From Desulfofustis sp. PB-SRB1 (GTDB lineage: Bacteria > Desulfobacterota > Desulfobulbia > Desulfobulbales > Desulfocapsaceae), in contig JAEQMT010000023.1 of the NCBI GenBank assembly GCA_016722945.1, positions 186,001 through 250,000 of the forward strand: a stretch of DNA of 64,000 bases. Reading direction: 5' to 3'. The notes beneath the pieces are model-generated. The model ran no database searches. It saw only the letters and a list, made by a program, of their open reading frames with translations, and was not told where the DNA came from. Of this stretch, positions 2,485 through 46,874 are shown one piece after another (within the stretch, counting starts at the first letter, position 1; every line of letters begins with the position of its first letter). A program made the translations under genes and the position numbers.

Positions 2485-3705
2485 ATGCCGTTTCGTATGG
2501 CGGAAACTGAGCAGGTTGCAACCGTAAAGGTTATCGGTGTTGGCGGTGGCGGCGGCAACGCCATCAACACCATGGTGGACAACCGGTTGCAGGGGGTACA
2601 ATTTATCTCCGCCAACACCGACAAACAGACCCTCGCCCAGTCCCGAGCAGATATCTGCATACAGCTCGGACCCAGCATCACCAAGGGGTTGGGAGCCGGC
2701 GCCGATCCCGAGATCGGGGCGCAGGCGGCGCACGAATCACTCGATGAGATCAAGGAGGTTCTCAAGGGAAGCGATATGGTCTTCGTCACCGCCGGTCTTG
2801 GTGGCGGCACCGGTACCGGTGCCGCTCCCGTGGTGGCCCGGTTGAGCAAAGAGATGGGGGCCCTGACCGTGGCGGTGGTGACCAAACCGTTTAGTTTCGA
2901 AGGCAAACAGCGAGCCAAAAACGCCGAAGCGGGATGGCGGGAGCTTCACGATTTTGCCGACACCCTGATCACCATTCCCAATGACCGCCTCCTCACCCTT
3001 ATGCAGAAGACCTCCAAGCTCGCCGATATGCTCACCCTGGCCGATTCGGTACTGCTCCAGGCGGTGAAGGGGATTACCGATCTCATCAGTGTTCCCGGTC
3101 TGATCAACGCCGATTTTGCCGATTTGCGCACGGTGATGCGCGAGGTGGGACCGGCGATCATGGGCTCCGCCTCGGCGGTGGGTGAGAACCGGGCCGAGGA
3201 GGCCGCCAAACGGGCGATCGATAATCAACTCCTGGAAGATGTGGGGATCGATGGCGCCCGCGGCCTGCTGATAAATATCTCCGCCTCCCATGAGAGCTTC
3301 ACCATGGCCGAATTCATGGCGGCTTCCGCCCTGATTCAGGAAAAGGTGGACGAGGATGCCAAGGTGGTGATCGGCGCCCTGTATGATGATTCACTGGGCG
3401 ATGAGCTGCAGGTAACGGTGATTGCCACCGGGGTCGGCGAAACGGCGGGCACCCGGCGAACCATTCATCATGTGGAAGATCTGCGTCTCAGCCAGTTGCG
3501 GGTCGAGGGCGAGAGCCAGGGGGCAATGAAGCCGGCGCCTCCCAACGAGCAAAAAAAGGGTACCGTCCTGCCGGGCTCCAATTTCGAATCTTTTGACGCG
3601 CAGGGAAGTGATGCTCAAACTGAGAGCGTCGAACCGCGCCGTGGCGATACGCACTATGAGGATTACCTGGAAACCCCCACCTATCTGCGTAAAAAAGCAA
3701 ATTAG
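2485..3705 (+). CDS. ftsZ: Cell division protein FtsZ
   Basis: Tubulin-like GTPase that forms the Z ring. At 406 aa, the N-terminal nucleotide loop [13 protein letters not shown] comes first, and the tubulin signature GGGTGTG lies near residues 106-112. The C-terminal core is followed by a variable linker and the conserved tail peptide [10 protein letters not shown], which binds FtsA and ZipA-type partners. A strong GAGGGGGG ribosome site lies 7-8 bases before ATG 2485. It is separated from ftsA by a repeat element, so readthrough or its own promoter must supply transcription. Confidence 0.98.
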
Positions 3706-3724
3706 CTCACCCATCACCAGGGAT

Positions 3725-3862
3725 CCTTGAAACATGAGAAATTTCGTTCAAGATCAAGGCGCCAGGGAAATTTTGCCGCGGGCCGGAATGATAGTGCCGG
3801 GATAAGATTTTTTGAGCAACGCGGAGATTGGGCGAAAAGGCCATTTTGCAAGGTTCTCACCA
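3725..3862. repeat. Family-2 dispersed repeat, copy A
   Basis: About 140 bp that closely resembles 7237-7376 and 53381-53523. Shared blocks include CCTTGnAACATGAGA at the left, TGCCGGG in the middle, and TTGGGCGAAA...CATTTTGCAAGGTTCTCA at the right. The right end runs into the 5' part of the following radical SAM gene, whose upstream start candidate (TTG 3812) lies inside the repeat. The ends are imperfect inverted repeats. Confidence 0.7.
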
Positions 3863-5656
3863 TTTTTGAGTTCCCATACCAGACGCCATAGTGCCGATTC
3901 GGCACGAAAAAACCGCCTGGCCGGTGAACGGGGCGTCTACCTGAAAAAATGGGGCGACCGTCTGCCGGTGGCGCTGCTCTATCCCAACCGATACCGGGCC
4001 GGTATGGCCAGCCTCGGCATGCAGCTGGTCTATCACCAGCTCAACGAATGCGAAACTATTGTCTGCGAGCGCATCTTTCTCCCCGATGACGACTCTTCTC
4101 CCGTTTCCATGGAGTCGGGGCGCCCGCTGGACAATTTCGCCGTTGTCCTCTGCTCGATCAGCTTTGAGCAGGACTATGTCAATCTGGTTCGTCTGCTGCT
4201 GGATGGCGGTATCGCTGCCTTGAGTGAGCAGCGCGGTGAGCGGATCGAGCCCGGCGCGCCGCTGGTGGTGGGCGGTGGGGTGGCGCTTTCTATGAATCCC
4301 GAGCCGCTGGCGCCGTTTTTTGATCTGCTTTTGATCGGTGAGGCGGAGGTACTGCTGCCGCCGTTGCTCACTATCCTCAGCGAGCCGCTTGGTTCACGCC
4401 GCGAGTTTCTTGGTCGTAGCCTGGTTTTGGGGGCGGGGTTTTACGTGCCGCGCCGCTACACCCCGAGCTATGACGGGGCCGGCCGATTTGTCGGGATGCA
4501 GGCCGATGGCGGCGCCCCTGCCCGTGTCAAGCGGGTGTACGCCGATGAAACCCAGGTAACCGGCCGCTCCCAGCTGTTGAGCCCGGATGCCGAGTTTGCC
4601 GATCTCTACATGGTGGAGTTGGGCAGAGGGTGCAGTCGCGGCTGCCGGTTCTGCACCGCCGGATTTGTCTTGAGACCGCCGCGTCTCTGGGGTGAACAGA
4701 CGGTGGCCGCGGCCCTTGCCGATTGTCCGGCGGACATTAGCCGGGTTGGTCTGCTGGGCATGGAAATGACCGATGAAGAGACCATCGAGACCATCTCAGA
4801 GCACATGCTGGCGGACGACCGTACTCTTTCTTTTTCTTCATTGCGGGCTGATCGCATATCCGGCCGTCTGCTTGCCCTGCTTGGCAAAACCAGACCCAAA
4901 AGTCTTGCCATCGCCCCGGACGGCGCCTCGCAGCGGCTGCGGCGGGTGATCAACAAGGGGCTCAGCGAGGCTGATATTATCTCCGCCGGCGAGCATCTCG
5001 CCGCCGCCGGGCTCTATCGCCTGAAGCTCTACCTGATGATCGGGCTGCCCACCGAGACCGCGGCCGATATCGACGAATTTCTCGGTCTGCTCGGCAGGCT
5101 GCGCGAAGCAATGAACACAATCGGTCGCAGCCATGGCCGGTTATGTGAGCTGATCGTCTCGGCCACTAGTTTCGTGCCCAAACCGTGGACCCCGTTTCAA
5201 TATCATCCCTTCGGCTCACCCGAACCGCCCGCTCAAGGTGAGTCGATATCAGCCGATAGGGCCGTATCAATGCTGAAAAAACGGACCGCGCAGTTGAAAA
5301 AGGGGATCACCGCGCTTGCCAACGTCACGCTCAAAACGGATAAAGTCGAAGATGCTCTCTGGCAGGCGGTGCTGGCCCGTGGTGATCGAAGGCTGGCCCC
5401 AGTCTTGCTGGATATGGCGGCATCGGGTATATCATCGAAGCGGGCCATGAAACAACACGGGGTGAGCGCCGATCTCTTTGCCACCCGCCACTACCGCGAC
5501 GACGATGCACTGCCATGGCAGATTATCGATCAGGGTATAAACGATTCGTATCTCTTCGATGAATATAGCAAAGCGATTTTGGCCCGGGAGAGCCGCCCCT
5601 GTGAGCCGCCCCACTGCCGAAGATGCGGGGTCTGCGGCCGGCCCCCGGACAACTGA
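3812..5656 (+). CDS. B12-binding-type radical SAM protein
   Basis: Radical SAM enzyme of the class with an N-terminal cobalamin-binding-like domain; the substrate is unknown. The protein is 614 aa from TTG 3812. The motif GCSRGCRFCTAG supplies the CxxxCxxC triad near residues 274-281. A Cys-rich tail (HCRRCGVCG) at the C terminus resembles a zinc or extra Fe-S site. Homology starts around GERGVYLKKWGDRLPVALLYP, so the start is uncertain: TTG 3812 and TTG 3866 both lie in or at the edge of a dispersed repeat, and no ATG occurs before conserved sequence. The last 98 bases overlap the kinase reading frame downstream. Confidence 0.75.
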   Translation: MSNAEIGRKGHFARFSPFLSSHTRRHSADSARKNRLAGERGVYLKKWGDRLPVALLYPNRYRAGMASLGMQLVYHQLNECETIVCERIFLPDDDSSPVSMESGRPLDNFAVVLCSISFEQDYVNLVRLLLDGGIAALSEQRGERIEPGAPLVVGGGVALSMNPEPLAPFFDLLLIGEAEVLLPPLLTILSEPLGSRREFLGRSLVLGAGFYVPRRYTPSYDGAGRFVGMQADGGAPARVKRVYADETQVTGRSQLLSPDAEFADLYMVELGRGCSRGCRFCTAGFVLRPPRLWGEQTVAAALADCPADISRVGLLGMEMTDEETIETISEHMLADDRTLSFSSLRADRISGRLLALLGKTRPKSLAIAPDGASQRLRRVINKGLSEADIISAGEHLAAAGLYRLKLYLMIGLPTETAADIDEFLGLLGRLREAMNTIGRSHGRLCELIVSATSFVPKPWTPFQYHPFGSPEPPAQGESISADRAVSMLKKRTAQLKKGITALANVTLKTDKVEDALWQAVLARGDRRLAPVLLDMAASGISSKRAMKQHGVSADLFATRHYRDDDALPWQIIDQGINDSYLFDEYSKAILARESRPCEPPHCRRCGVCGRPPDN

Positions 5657-43754: not shown

Positions 43755-44135
43755 TCAATCGTGCACGTAAAGCTCGTCTATCTCATCCCATGTTTCGATA
43801 TCGCCCTGCCGCAGAAGCGCCAGCTTTTTATAATAAAACATCTGCACCGAGATAAACTCCACGCGCAGATCCTGGCATTTTTTCGGCTCATTGGGCGCCA
43901 ATGCGCACGCCTCGGCATCGGGCATGGCGACGATGCGATCGATTTCGTCGAGCAATCCCTGTTTGGTCAAGCGCAGAAATCGGGTGTGTTCGATGATGAC
44001 CGGCGGCGCGTAGTTGATGCCCTCCAGCCGGACGGCGGTTTTTTCGATAATCTCTGGGGAAGCGTCATTGGGCATTTCCTGGACCTGGCGGCGGAACTGG
44101 TCAATCTTTGCGGAAAATTCCTGTTCTTCGCTCAT
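43755..44135 (-). CDS. Small protein coupled to the SbtM maturase
   Basis: About 126 aa from ATG 44135, which overlaps the maturase stop (ATGA) and has GGAG upstream; the longer frame from 44156 is less likely. It is acidic and mostly helical, with the segments QFRRQVQEMPNDASPEI, YAPPVIIEHTRFLRLTKQG and LRVEFISVQMFYYKKLALL. I know no named family for it. Translational coupling to the radical SAM maturase suggests a role in making, exporting or recognising the modified seleno-peptide. Confidence 0.7.
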   Translation of the reverse strand: MSEEQEFSAKIDQFRRQVQEMPNDASPEIIEKTAVRLEGINYAPPVIIEHTRFLRLTKQGLLDEIDRIVAMPDAEACALAPNEPKKCQDLRVEFISVQMFYYKKLALLRQGDIETWDEIDELYVHD

Positions 44136-45694
44136 GGCTGCTCCTTGGTTATGCAATGATGTTGGTAGTGCGGCTCTTTGAAACAGTAGGGGTCAAGGGC
44201 GGTAAACGGGTCGAGTCCTAAACCGGTGGTAATGGCCAGACAACTGCCGCAAACCGGGCGCAGTTCACAATGAAAACAGGCGCTGCTGCCGTCTCGGATG
44301 GCGCCTGCCGGTGAAGATTCATATATGGTGATAAGTGAGTCGCTGTGCACCGTGCCGATGGGTAAGCATGCCTTTCGACATCCATACACCTCGCCGTCTG
44401 GGAGCAGGGCGACGAAATTGAAAGCGGCGCCGCAACCAAATCCGGTGCATCCGCCGCTAACCGGGGCGCCTTCTTCATGTCTAATGATATTGAACAGATT
44501 ATCTTTTGTTCCCATGATCGGGTTGGCGGCGGCGGCCTTGAGGTAGTCAGCCAGAAACTGCTTGAAATCACCGGGTGGGACGGATGCCAGCGATGCCCCC
44601 TCGCCGGACAGGGCCAACCGGTTGAAGGTGAACAGGTTGACCTTGTCACGCAGATACTCGGCCAGGGGCAGTACCTGGTCTCTATTTGCCCGGGTGAGGG
44701 TGAGCATCACCATGGAGTAGATTCGCAATGTTTTCAAAACGGACAGAAAATCGATGGTACGTGAGAAATGACCGGCGCCGCGGATATAGTCGTTATGTTC
44801 GGCCAGCCCCTCAAGGCTGACCTGCATGAATGCCGGGTGCTTGATGTCGATGAGTGTTTGCAGGTCTTGCCTGGCGGTGGGGTTGCCAAGAATGCCGATG
44901 GTAAAGCCTCGTTCGGCGGCGCCTTTGTACAGGGCGGTGAAATCAGGGTGCAAAAAGGGGTTGCCGCCGGAAAAGCTGACCTGGCCGCGCACCTGGAAAT
45001 GACGGCAGAAGTCGTAGAAATCGTCGAGGATGCGGATACCTTCAAAGAGTTCGACGGCCCGCCGACTGCTTCGGTCATAACAATGACGGCAGTGCAGGTC
45101 ACAGGCCTGGGTGATATGCCACTGCAGGGTAAATATGCGGGCCCGCAGATAGCGCTCGTCAACCACCGTCTCAGACGTGAAAGCCCGGATAAGCCTTGAG
45201 GGAGGGGAGATAATCAGACCGCGTGATTCAGCCTGGTCAATAATCGCCTCGATGTGGCCTATGCTGACACCGCCCTGCTCAGCGGTGCGCCTGCTATCAA
45301 TTGACTCTCCGACCAGCTTGAGGGCCAGCAGTTCGTGGCCGGTGGGGGAAAATATTTCTATCTCGCCTTTACCATCACCGTACACCACCACGAACCCCTC
45401 TTCCTGCTGTGGCGATACCTTTTCACCGTGCAGCAGGGCGGGCAAATCACTCCACTGCACCTTGAGGAGGCGGACGCCGGGGTGAATCATGCGGGTGATG
45501 ACTTCTTCGGGCGGTTGTGGCGGATTGGCGCGCAGCCGGTATGCAGTAAGCTCGATTTCACCGCAATCGGCGCAATATGGCGCTGATTCGCACCAGTGTG
45601 GATTGTCGCGCAGGAAGGTCACGATATCGTCTGGGCTCAGTTCCGGCAGTGGCCGGTCAAGCAGGCGGGAGGTATAGGGAAATATGTGTTGCAC
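44132..45694 (-). CDS. sbtM: Radical SAM/SPASM maturase, SbtM-like
   Basis: Radical SAM peptide maturase of about 520 aa. The rSAM triad is in CDLHCRHCYD near the middle. The C-terminal SPASM region carries many Cys (GGCTGFGCGA, GCRKACL, CFHCELRPVCGSC), ligands for auxiliary clusters. The N-terminal 180 residues form a separate domain with CESAPYCADCGE, possibly the peptide-binding part. GTG 45694 is preferred; a TTG at 45733 overlaps the U-tract of the terminator. It lies directly downstream of the six-Sec precursor gene, as expected for the selenobiotic (SbtA/SbtM) pair. Confidence 0.85.
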   Translation of the reverse strand: MQHIFPYTSRLLDRPLPELSPDDIVTFLRDNPHWCESAPYCADCGEIELTAYRLRANPPQPPEEVITRMIHPGVRLLKVQWSDLPALLHGEKVSPQQEEGFVVVYGDGKGEIEIFSPTGHELLALKLVGESIDSRRTAEQGGVSIGHIEAIIDQAESRGLIISPPSRLIRAFTSETVVDERYLRARIFTLQWHITQACDLHCRHCYDRSSRRAVELFEGIRILDDFYDFCRHFQVRGQVSFSGGNPFLHPDFTALYKGAAERGFTIGILGNPTARQDLQTLIDIKHPAFMQVSLEGLAEHNDYIRGAGHFSRTIDFLSVLKTLRIYSMVMLTLTRANRDQVLPLAEYLRDKVNLFTFNRLALSGEGASLASVPPGDFKQFLADYLKAAAANPIMGTKDNLFNIIRHEEGAPVSGGCTGFGCGAAFNFVALLPDGEVYGCRKACLPIGTVHSDSLITIYESSPAGAIRDGSSACFHCELRPVCGSCLAITTGLGLDPFTALDPYCFKEPHYQHHCITKEQP

Positions 45695-45731
45695 GGGTAA
45701 GTTTGTAACGCAGGTAGTGATAAAGTTGCAC

Positions 45732-45767
45732 AAAAAAAAGCCGGTGACCCGTGAGGGTTACCGGCTT
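45732..45767 (-). terminator. Intrinsic terminator between sbtA and sbtM
   Basis: Read on the minus strand, AAGCCGGTAACCC pairs with GGGTCACCGGCTT (one wobble) around a 4-base loop and is followed by eight U. It lies 35 bases after the sbtA stop. It should make most transcripts end after the precursor gene and only some read through to the maturase, a common precursor/maturase arrangement in RiPP loci. Confidence 0.9.
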
Positions 45768-45789
45768 AATTTGTTAAACACGCGCGAAC

Positions 45790-46067
45790 CGCACGTCAAT
45801 GTTAGCCGCTTCAGCCGCTGGATGCTTTTGGTTTTTCCTCTTCGGCGCTCCCGGCGCCGTCAGTTGAACCGCTTCAGCCGCTGGATGCTTCTGGTTTTTT
45901 TACTTCGGCGCTCCCGGCGCCTTCGTCAGAACCACTTCAGCCGCTTGCCGCTTCTGGTTTTTTAATCTCGGCGCTCCCGGCGCCTTCGTTAGAACCACTT
46001 CAGCCGCTTGCGGCGGGCTGATCCTTGTCAGTGCTCCCGGCACTTGACTTGGCTCCTCACCCGGAGC
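45790..46067 (-). promoter_or_regulatory. Array of SECIS-like hairpins in sbtA
   Basis: After UGA59, UGA80 and UGA101, 15 bases separate the UGA from GGCGC-CGGGA-GCGCC. After UGA40, 12 bases precede AGTGC-CGGGA-GCACT, which keeps pairing through two compensatory base-pair changes. After UGA122 the hairpin CGTGC-GGTTC-GCGCG again starts after 15 bases, but it lies beyond the TAA stop, in the 3' untranslated region. UGA36 is followed at once by GCTCC/GGAGC and may share the UGA40 element. Pentaloop position matches bacterial SECIS elements bound by SelB. Confidence 0.8.
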
Positions 46068-46176
46068 TTCAACCGCTGGCCGCATTGGCGTGACCGCCGG
46101 GCAGGGCGGCACCGCCCATGCCAAGCAGTCCGGCGACGCTCAGGCTGGCCAGGAGCTTTTTCAGATCCTTGTTCAT
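45802..46176 (-). CDS. sbtA: Six-selenocysteine RiPP precursor, SbtA-like
   Basis: A 124-aa peptide when six in-frame UGA codons are read as Sec (U36, U40, U59, U80, U101, U122); the stop is TAA at 45802-45804. ATG 46176 follows GGAGG by 6 bases. Residues 1-32 (MNKDLKKLLASLSVAGLLGM, then GGAALPGGHANA) look like a signal or leader. After SGUSSGUG come four units with exact 21-residue period: SGUSGSNEGAGSAEIKKPE and variants, ending SGUSG. No other stop interrupts the frame, and the UGAs fall only in SGU positions. Hairpins that can serve as SECIS elements follow the UGAs at constant distance. A radical SAM maturase gene lies immediately downstream. Standard ORF calling would miss this gene. 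Confidence 0.9.
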
Positions 46177-46439
46177 GTTCACCCTCCAATGAAAAAGTTG
46201 AGCGATTCCATAGATAATTTCTATGATAAGCCGCGCAGTCATAGGAAGGCTAAATTATAGACGGGGTGTTGTCAACAGATTTCCTTATCAGTTCTGATGA
46301 TTTCCAGGTACCATATCCGGTCAAAAGAGTTATTATTCGCTCAGGATTGAAAATACCTCCTCGTGCATATCGGCGAACCAGCGGAGATTAAAGGAGTGGT
46401 TCGTATGAAAAAAGCGATGATTGAAAGGAGAACGACCTC

Positions 46440-46874
46440 ATGTATCGCCTGACTTACAAAAGCAAAAGTTCGGGGCCTATTAACAAGGAAACCCTGCGTG
46501 ACATCCTCTATGCAAGCATGGAATCGAATCGGCTCCATGGGGTGACCGGGGCGCTGTTGGCAACCCACAGTCACTACCTGCAGGTGCTGGAAGGTGATTT
46601 TGCCGGGGTGAACGAAACATTTCTGCGCATTGCCCGTGACCCCCGCCACGACACCCTTGAACTGGTGGCCTTCGGCCCCGTAACCCGCCGGCTCTTTGAT
46701 AAATGGAATATGAAGGCGTTCGGCATCTTTGATCTTAACAAGGAACTGGCCGACCAGCTCATGGAGAAATACGGCGAGGAAAACGGCGGGGTGCGCTTTC
46801 CCATTCAGGAGTGGGCCGCCCTGAGCCTTATCTTTGACGTCAGCATGATGAACAATCAGGCGTTTTCGTTTTAG
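46440..46874 (+). CDS. BLUF-domain blue-light sensor
   Basis: A 144-aa protein, a single BLUF domain with short tail. The flavin-site residues are present: Tyr6 (RLTYKS), Asn30 (ESNRLHGVTGALL), Gln48 (HYLQVLEGD), and Trp89 and Met91 (DKWNMKAF). BLUF proteins sense blue light with FAD and signal through protein partners. ATG 46440 has AGGAGA 8 bases upstream. It is divergent from sbtA and 30 bases before a transporter gene. A photosensor is unexpected in an anaerobe of this kind. Confidence 0.9.
   Translation: MYRLTYKSKSSGPINKETLRDILYASMESNRLHGVTGALLATHSHYLQVLEGDFAGVNETFLRIARDPRHDTLELVAFGPVTRRLFDKWNMKAFGIFDLNKELADQLMEKYGEENGGVRFPIQEWAALSLIFDVSMMNNQAFSF

Follow-up and report, generated by a model that had tools for sequence, protein, structure and literature searches.

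The 64-kb stretch of Desulfofustis sp. PB-SRB1 DNA analysed here (the window) carries on its minus strand a short precursor gene, sbtA, followed by sbtM, a gene for a radical SAM/SPASM maturase (Table 1). Translation of 46176-45802 on this strand yields a single frame that begins with MNKDLKKLLASLSVAGLLGMGGAALPGGHANA, continues into a core with six UGA sites and then reaches TAA; the UGAs, at residues 36, 40, 59, 80, 101 and 122, are its only interruptions, and Ser-Gly precedes all six. The original prediction, made from the letters of this DNA, had claimed this frame, a GGAGG element ahead of the ATG and an exact 63-nt spacing of four UGAs, all of which are borne out (GGAGG lies 6 nt upstream, and the last four UGAs are 21 codons apart). 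Tandem Repeats Finder detects the same 63-nt period in 3.2 copies at 45809-46008; the repeat is GC-rich and the core is of low complexity, dominated by Gly, Ser and Ala. UGA is otherwise an ordinary stop in this genome, since 17 of the 41 long ORFs in the window, sbtM among them, end in TGA, which rules out genome-wide reassignment of the codon. The six sbtA UGAs are unequal: five are followed by a conserved hairpin whose loop lies 17-21 nt away, and the first (46071-46069) is not.

Table 1. Features of the sbtA-sbtM locus (window positions; R1, covariance model of the hairpin described in the text)
Feature	Positions	Strand	Basis
Ribosome-binding site GGAGG, 6 nt before ATG	46183..46187	-	sequence
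sbtA precursor gene, 124 codons + TAA, six in-frame UGA	45802..46176	-	sequence; TIGR04081 match
Leader, residues 1-32 (MNKDLKKLL...HANA), signal-peptide-like, AxA end	46081..46176	-	TIGR04081 on residues 1-26; AxA pattern
UGA 36, without its own standard-distance hairpin	46069..46071	-	fold; not found by R1
UGA 40 (46059-46057) + hairpin 46044-46030, loop CGGGA at ~17-18 nt	46030..46059	-	R1 25.8 bits, E 0.0017
UGA 59 (46002-46000) + hairpin 45985-45969, loop at ~20-21 nt	45969..46002	-	R1 37.1 bits, E 8.2e-6
UGA 80 (45939-45937) + hairpin 45922-45906, loop at ~20-21 nt	45906..45939	-	R1 35.7 bits, E 1.6e-5
UGA 101 (45876-45874) + hairpin 45859-45843, loop at ~20-21 nt	45843..45876	-	R1 42.8 bits, E 5.8e-7
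UGA 122 (45813-45811) + hairpin 45796-45780, loop at ~21 nt	45780..45813	-	R1 19.6 bits, E 0.033; fold
Terminator-like hairpin + T-run between sbtA and sbtM	45732..45767	-	stem 45738-45767 listed on + strand only; T-run read from sequence
sbtM, radical SAM/SPASM maturase, ends TGA	44132..45733	-	TIGR04082, 598.2 bits, cut-off 350
SbtM N-terminal RRE-like domain, modelled residues 72-200	45134..45520	-	model pLDDT 88.1; weak fold matches to RRE domains
SbtM radical SAM domain, CX3CX2C (C211, C215, C218)	44654..45115	-	PF04055; alignment
SbtM SPASM domain	44267..44434	-	PF13186

Both genes belong to families already curated in NCBIfam. The sbtA leader scores 35.3 bits against TIGR04081 (SbtA; cut-off 30.5; 37 bits in the genome search), the core presents Sec/Cys in the S/G-S/G-U-G/S motif of SbtA as six SGU sites, and the adjoining gene product is the sole protein in the genome over the cut-off of TIGR04082 (SbtM). 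The expectation of an SbtA/SbtM-type precursor beside a radical SAM maturase was thus correct, both cut-offs being passed, as was the family attributed to it; its description as a comparative-genomics prediction of thio(seleno)oxazole is outdated, in-vitro formation having been reported (PMC11002830). In that account, Lewis et al. 2021 describe an SbtM (WP_083768621) under whose action Cys and Sec peptides lost four hydrogens in vitro; by NMR, the Cys product contained a thiooxazole (PMC11002830). Because this chemistry was published in 2021, the SbtA-SbtM pairing is not new, and the window locus stands at the extreme end of a family already known. A 2026 inventory names the precursor selenobacteriocin, with the motif SGUG and two Sec; in the sections of it available, the great majority of the 119 prokaryotic selenoprotein families contain a single Sec and a small minority contain two or three, with three the table maximum (PMC13188914). 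Our literature search found nothing on selenobiotics or selenooxazole, and in the available portions of the papers on the SbtA/SbtM RiPP family no natural product or function is described. The window shares with the system as there described the leader family, the radical SAM/SPASM maturase, the gene order, the Sec codon in an SGU motif and a SECIS element just downstream (PMC11002830, PMC13188914). It differs in having six Sec rather than the two of the inventory (PMC13188914), a first UGA lacking its own standard hairpin, and 63-nt tandem cassettes of which the last hairpin lies beyond the stop; the proposed decoding-cassette architecture, the hairpin in the 3' untranslated region, the weak point at the first UGA, the six-Sec maximum and the signal-like leaders and RRE-like SbtM domain, reminiscent of bufferins, are what is new here.

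The sbtM frame probably starts at the GTG at 45694, downstream of its longest extent, as its best relatives align only from residue 14. The CX3CX2C motif and the SPASM cysteines are invariant among 17 aligned SbtM proteins, the window's included; in and around the SPASM domain the alignment gives invariant Cys 429, 434, 452, 486, 489, 495, 498 and 517. A PDB profile search with the N-terminal domain returned nothing better than E 1, and the Pfam model NGO1945_C matches 4 of 63 members of the domain, giving a hint of relationship, although generic HTH models match as many. ACGX-type radical SAM/SPASM maturases (TIGR04340) are of the same enzyme class, but the window SbtM scores 146 bits against a cut-off of 400, and ACGX precursors are of another kind.

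No further gene was found to accompany the pair across the relatives compared. Among 61 SbtM loci taken from a profile scan of genome contigs, no neighbour besides SbtM (ORFs of at least 90 aa) is shared by more than 15; the 15-locus ORF cluster itself was rejected as a conserved partner, since it is chained together by shared domains and its five scanned members are an assortment of signalling proteins (GGDEF, response regulator, histidine kinase). A conserved third gene was sought likewise with six window neighbours, including a 133-aa ORF, none of which has a tblastn match in 101 loci, bar one weak match of a TRAP protein. The 133-aa ORF, after sbtM at 43755-44156, shows no convincing family match and no homologue in SbtM loci. 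A divergent gene for a BLUF blue-light sensor (46440-46874; PF04940, E 1e-24) adjoins sbtA, here in a likely relative of sulfate reducers, and its protein has no match in other SbtM loci. A 10-locus cluster of minus-strand ORFs overlaps the sbtA region and is a putative antisense shadow. In 4 loci SbtM has genes for RND-type transporters nearby.

To place the six UGAs in context, we compared precursors selected by leader similarity and not by UGA (132 loci, of which 106 have a leader match, giving 93 distinct SbtA with the window's included and one truncated). For counting, a UGA at most three codons after the last Sec was taken as the stop, other homologues having TAA or TAG at that place. 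On this basis at least one in-frame Sec-type UGA occurs in 90 of the 93, so that the frame whose loss in homologues would have told against the original prediction is instead conserved. The number of Sec per precursor is none in 3, one in 4, two in 36, three in 28, four in 19, five in 2 and six in 1, the last being the window's alone, above all 92 others. The 252 Sec-UGAs lie in SGUG or SGUS context in 179 instances, with a median spacing of 22 codons (162 gaps, 8 of them under 13); for Cys sites the median is 8 codons (13 gaps). Sec and Cys interchange among homologues (L033, L053, L057, L065, L066), and the anticipated relatives with Cys in place of Sec in the SGU motif beside SbtM exist, as in L065 and L066, whose precursors have Cys only and retain SbtM. 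These two (L066 near 5250-5480, L065 near 3700-3890) have tighter repeats; the L065 genome has SelB, and that of L066 (Sedimentisphaerales) has none over the cut-off.

A separate search of 93 genomes of the window's family found SbtM over the cut-off in 42 and SbtA in 44, with both in 41 and neither in 48 (Fisher p 1.2e-21); SbtM occurs by itself in G084, and SbtA by itself in G020, G053 (where SbtM is broken, 277 bits) and G057. One genus (G007, G008, G012 and G023, for example) keeps both genes far apart or on different contigs, showing that the pair can be unlinked. Among cultured species, Desulfofustis glycolicus and Desulfosediminicola flagellatus possess SbtA.

For the hairpins behind the UGAs, we built a covariance model (R1) from 44 diverse elements of other genomes, with no window sequence, and ran it on the 64-kb window: its top five matches are those at UGA 101, 59, 80, 40 and 122, and the sixth lies elsewhere, with E 1.3. 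Run on 14 other loci, which include members of its training set, R1 gave 17 matches, all starting at Sec-UGAs, yet these are 17 of 32 such codons, so that a miss by R1 is weak evidence. An SbtA hairpin has mostly five to eight pairs and a loop of the form N-G-G/U, mostly 21 or 18 nt past the UGA. Under a single rule applied to all codons, it was present behind 233 of 252 Sec-UGAs; the corresponding figures are 2 of 23 for Cys codons occupying the Sec position of the motif and 562 of 6995 for the remaining codons. A looser rule also lets through 39.7% of 1500 control windows. Of the two Cys codons concerned, that of L057 retains a modified form of the hairpin, which would fit a Sec-to-Cys replacement in the recent past. 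If the loop is held at +21, five or more of the six pairs form at 55% of Sec-UGAs and at 4.5% of other codons. In the six-pair helix of the 44 elements 96.6% of cells are paired, a percentage inflated by their having been chosen for a loop at +21; changes on both sides occur at all six pairs (67 cells), and the covariation score of 0.69 compares with at most 0.18 for slid partners and is reached by 0 of 500 shuffles. Folding energy, taken alone, does not support the hairpins, single elements (z -2.2 to +0.5 against shuffles) being not clearly unusual, and Rfam has no match on 45700-46300.

The consensus given for bacterial SECIS elements, a loop of 3-9 nt on a stem of 4-16 bp, G in the first two loop positions and a loop 16-37 nt from the UGA (PMC13188914), describes the hairpins of U40, U59, U80, U101 and U122, and U36 just through a shared hairpin at 29-30 nt. 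The window gene differs from other bacterial selenoproteins with such elements (formate dehydrogenase, for example) in being short, with many UGA-hairpin units in series, and in having its terminal unit in the 3' untranslated region. Each 63-nt repeat would then serve as a decoding cassette, whose GAGSAE-like spacer peptide may be for the most part the hairpin in translation and whose 21-residue length may be set by the room needed for a UGA and its hairpin. Bacterial SECIS elements are described as placed in the coding region (PMC1088965; PMC13188914, in the parts available), whereas the hairpin of UGA 122 lies wholly downstream of the TAA (45804-45802). The same holds widely: in 71 SbtA the last Sec is near the end, so that a hairpin at the standard distance must enter the 3' untranslated region, and 68 of the 71 have one, which in 61 follows the stop over its entire length. 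By our counting rule, 26 SbtA end in a UGA that itself stands two or three codons after a Sec-UGA, so that hairpin distance would have to discriminate between the two.

UGA 36 is the weak point of the frame. We found no hairpin at 16-24 nt after it, and R1 gives no match there; a five-pair hairpin directly behind it (46052-46067) has its loop at +7, under the 16-nt minimum (PMC13188914). Were UGA 36 not read, nothing after residue 35 would be made, and termination at this codon is a real weakness of the Sec reading because it has no standard hairpin of its own. UGA 36 stands 12 nt before UGA 40, however, and the loop of the latter's hairpin lies 29-30 nt from it, inside the 16-37 nt range; it may be read with the help of that hairpin, and the simplest account is that the two codons probably share one SECIS. 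A further 7 SbtA have UGAs doubled at a distance of three to six codons. Five of these (L036, L047, L049, L062, L064) were ruled out as hairpin-less cases because a hairpin belonging to the first UGA encloses the second UGA and the stop in its loop, which leaves the window, L050 and L060 only; in the same five the stop follows the last UGA immediately. In L033, which is closely related to L060, Cys occupies both of the doubled positions, an argument that a hairpin-less first UGA is read.

Decoding further requires selenocysteine machinery, and SelA, SelB, SelD and tRNA-Sec of the window genome all score above curated cut-offs. Its SelD gene (G000:C1:254885-255808, L069) has one internal TGA, so that the selenophosphate synthetase is probably itself a selenoprotein. 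SelA passes the cut-off in 34 of 42 genomes with SbtM and in 36 of the remaining 51 of the family, and its presence is therefore no marker of SbtM genomes. Eight SbtM genomes have no SelA over the cut-off, four of them complete or nearly complete. Neither the family search nor the window SelA as query found SelA in G023, G027, G036, G037 and G079, which are 97-100% complete (the first four in 1-2 contigs) and have SbtA and SbtM over the cut-off. Of the 70 genomes in which SelA passes the cut-off, 26 have selA beginning 185-669 bases into a contig, a position that would fit a long repeat, perhaps an rRNA operon, next to it. SelB is present in the genome of L013 (Desulfosediminicola flagellatus); the draft genome of L052, a locus with five Sec-UGAs, has no SelB over the cut-off, the one trace being a SelB-like fragment where a contig begins.

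The leader is the remaining element. Judged by simple pattern rules, 34 of the 93 SbtA leaders are lipobox-like and 55 of the other 59 have a loose AxA-type end; their resemblance to signal peptides or to lipoprotein signals is the ground on which we infer export. Taking these lines together, we give a probability of roughly 0.7 to the reading in which all six UGAs are decoded as Sec, five through their own predicted SECIS elements, SbtM would turn the Ser-Gly-Sec sites into thio(seleno)oxazoles and the predicted leader would direct export. The decoding of the six UGAs is supported by family membership, the conserved frame, Sec/Cys interchange, covarying hairpins at fixed distance and the Sec machinery; the Sec-rich modified peptide of the original prediction finds its support in the same family, machinery and frame, and in the motif and the SECIS-like hairpin. 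SbtM would grip the conserved leader through its N-terminal RRE-like domain and modify the Ser-Gly-Sec sites in the cytoplasm, after which the general Sec export route and signal peptidase may finish the product, a route proposed because no transporter or protease dedicated to the pair turned up as a common neighbour in the loci compared.

Two alternatives deny that the whole frame is translated. That it is a chance opening within a GC-rich tandem repeat might be suggested by the low-complexity composition and by single hairpins hardly stabler than shuffles; this is ruled out, to the point of being negligible, by the conservation of frame, motif and hairpin across genomes, by SbtA/SbtM co-occurrence and covariation, and because precursors found by leader alone nearly all (90/93) have at least one such UGA. 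That translation mostly ends at UGA 36, giving a 35-residue leader ahead of a decaying or regulatory relic, would accord with the missing hairpin at 16-24 nt and the R1 miss, but we regard it as distinctly unlikely: five downstream hairpins with E of 6e-7 to 0.03 are unexpected in a relic, other SbtA have doubled UGAs and two share the hairpin-less first one, and the paired Cys of L033 points the same way.

Other alternatives accept the peptide and differ on its fate. It might stay un- or lightly modified as a selenium store or redox buffer, with SbtM acting mainly elsewhere. The Sec-rich selenoprotein P of eukaryotes, a selenium carrier, offers a precedent, and no product of the window organism is known; we nevertheless consider a store unlikely, given that SbtA and SbtM occur together in 41 genomes and apart in 4, that the Ser-Gly-Sec context is conserved and that Cys-only precursors keep SbtM. 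SbtM activity on both Cys and Sec substrates is also reported (PMC11002830). A selenobacteriocin matured by a dedicated protease and transporter and active against competitors has the name used in the inventory in its favour (PMC13188914), together with the few RND-type genes near SbtM; the lack of any widely common neighbour among ORFs of at least 90 aa in 61 loci, the near absence of matches to the six window neighbours and the unlinking of the two genes in one genus make it very unlikely.

Granted the exported, modified peptide favoured above, its role may be sought by analogy. A multi-ring peptide would work in or beyond the periplasm, most plausibly by binding a soft metal such as copper. 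Bufferins are copper-sequestering RiPPs whose thiooxazoles are made by MNIO enzymes; they resemble the SbtA system in ring type (from Cys), in a signal-peptide or signal-peptide-like leader that is in some a lipoprotein signal, and, on the weak fold matches of the SbtM domain, perhaps in an RRE-type domain in the maturation machinery (PMC12452194). They differ in using an MNIO iron enzyme and a partner protein in place of radical SAM SbtM, and the available text describes no Sec in them (PMC12452194). The MNIO model PF05114 has no match in the window genome (as a control, it matched in 2 of 14 genomes), and neighbours compared across SbtM loci gave no link to copper. As a tentative proposal, less likely than not, the locus may make a bufferin-like product based on selenium: a multi-core metallophore, exported and bearing as many as six selenooxazoles per chain, with a radical SAM enzyme in the place of the MNIO, and decoded with one SECIS for two UGAs twelve bases apart (46071-46030) and the last SECIS beyond the stop.

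Standard gene calling would usually cut such genes at the first UGA and so miss the core. With more in-frame UGAs than any of the 92 other precursors compared, the window sbtA lends itself well to the study of selenium-rich peptide products, and its six-Sec cassettes allow tests of how a ribosome passes several stops, of how far a SECIS reaches and of whether one SECIS can serve two codons. For the family as a whole, the leaders and, by analogy, the ring chemistry suggest that the physiological role may lie in metal handling outside the cytoplasm.
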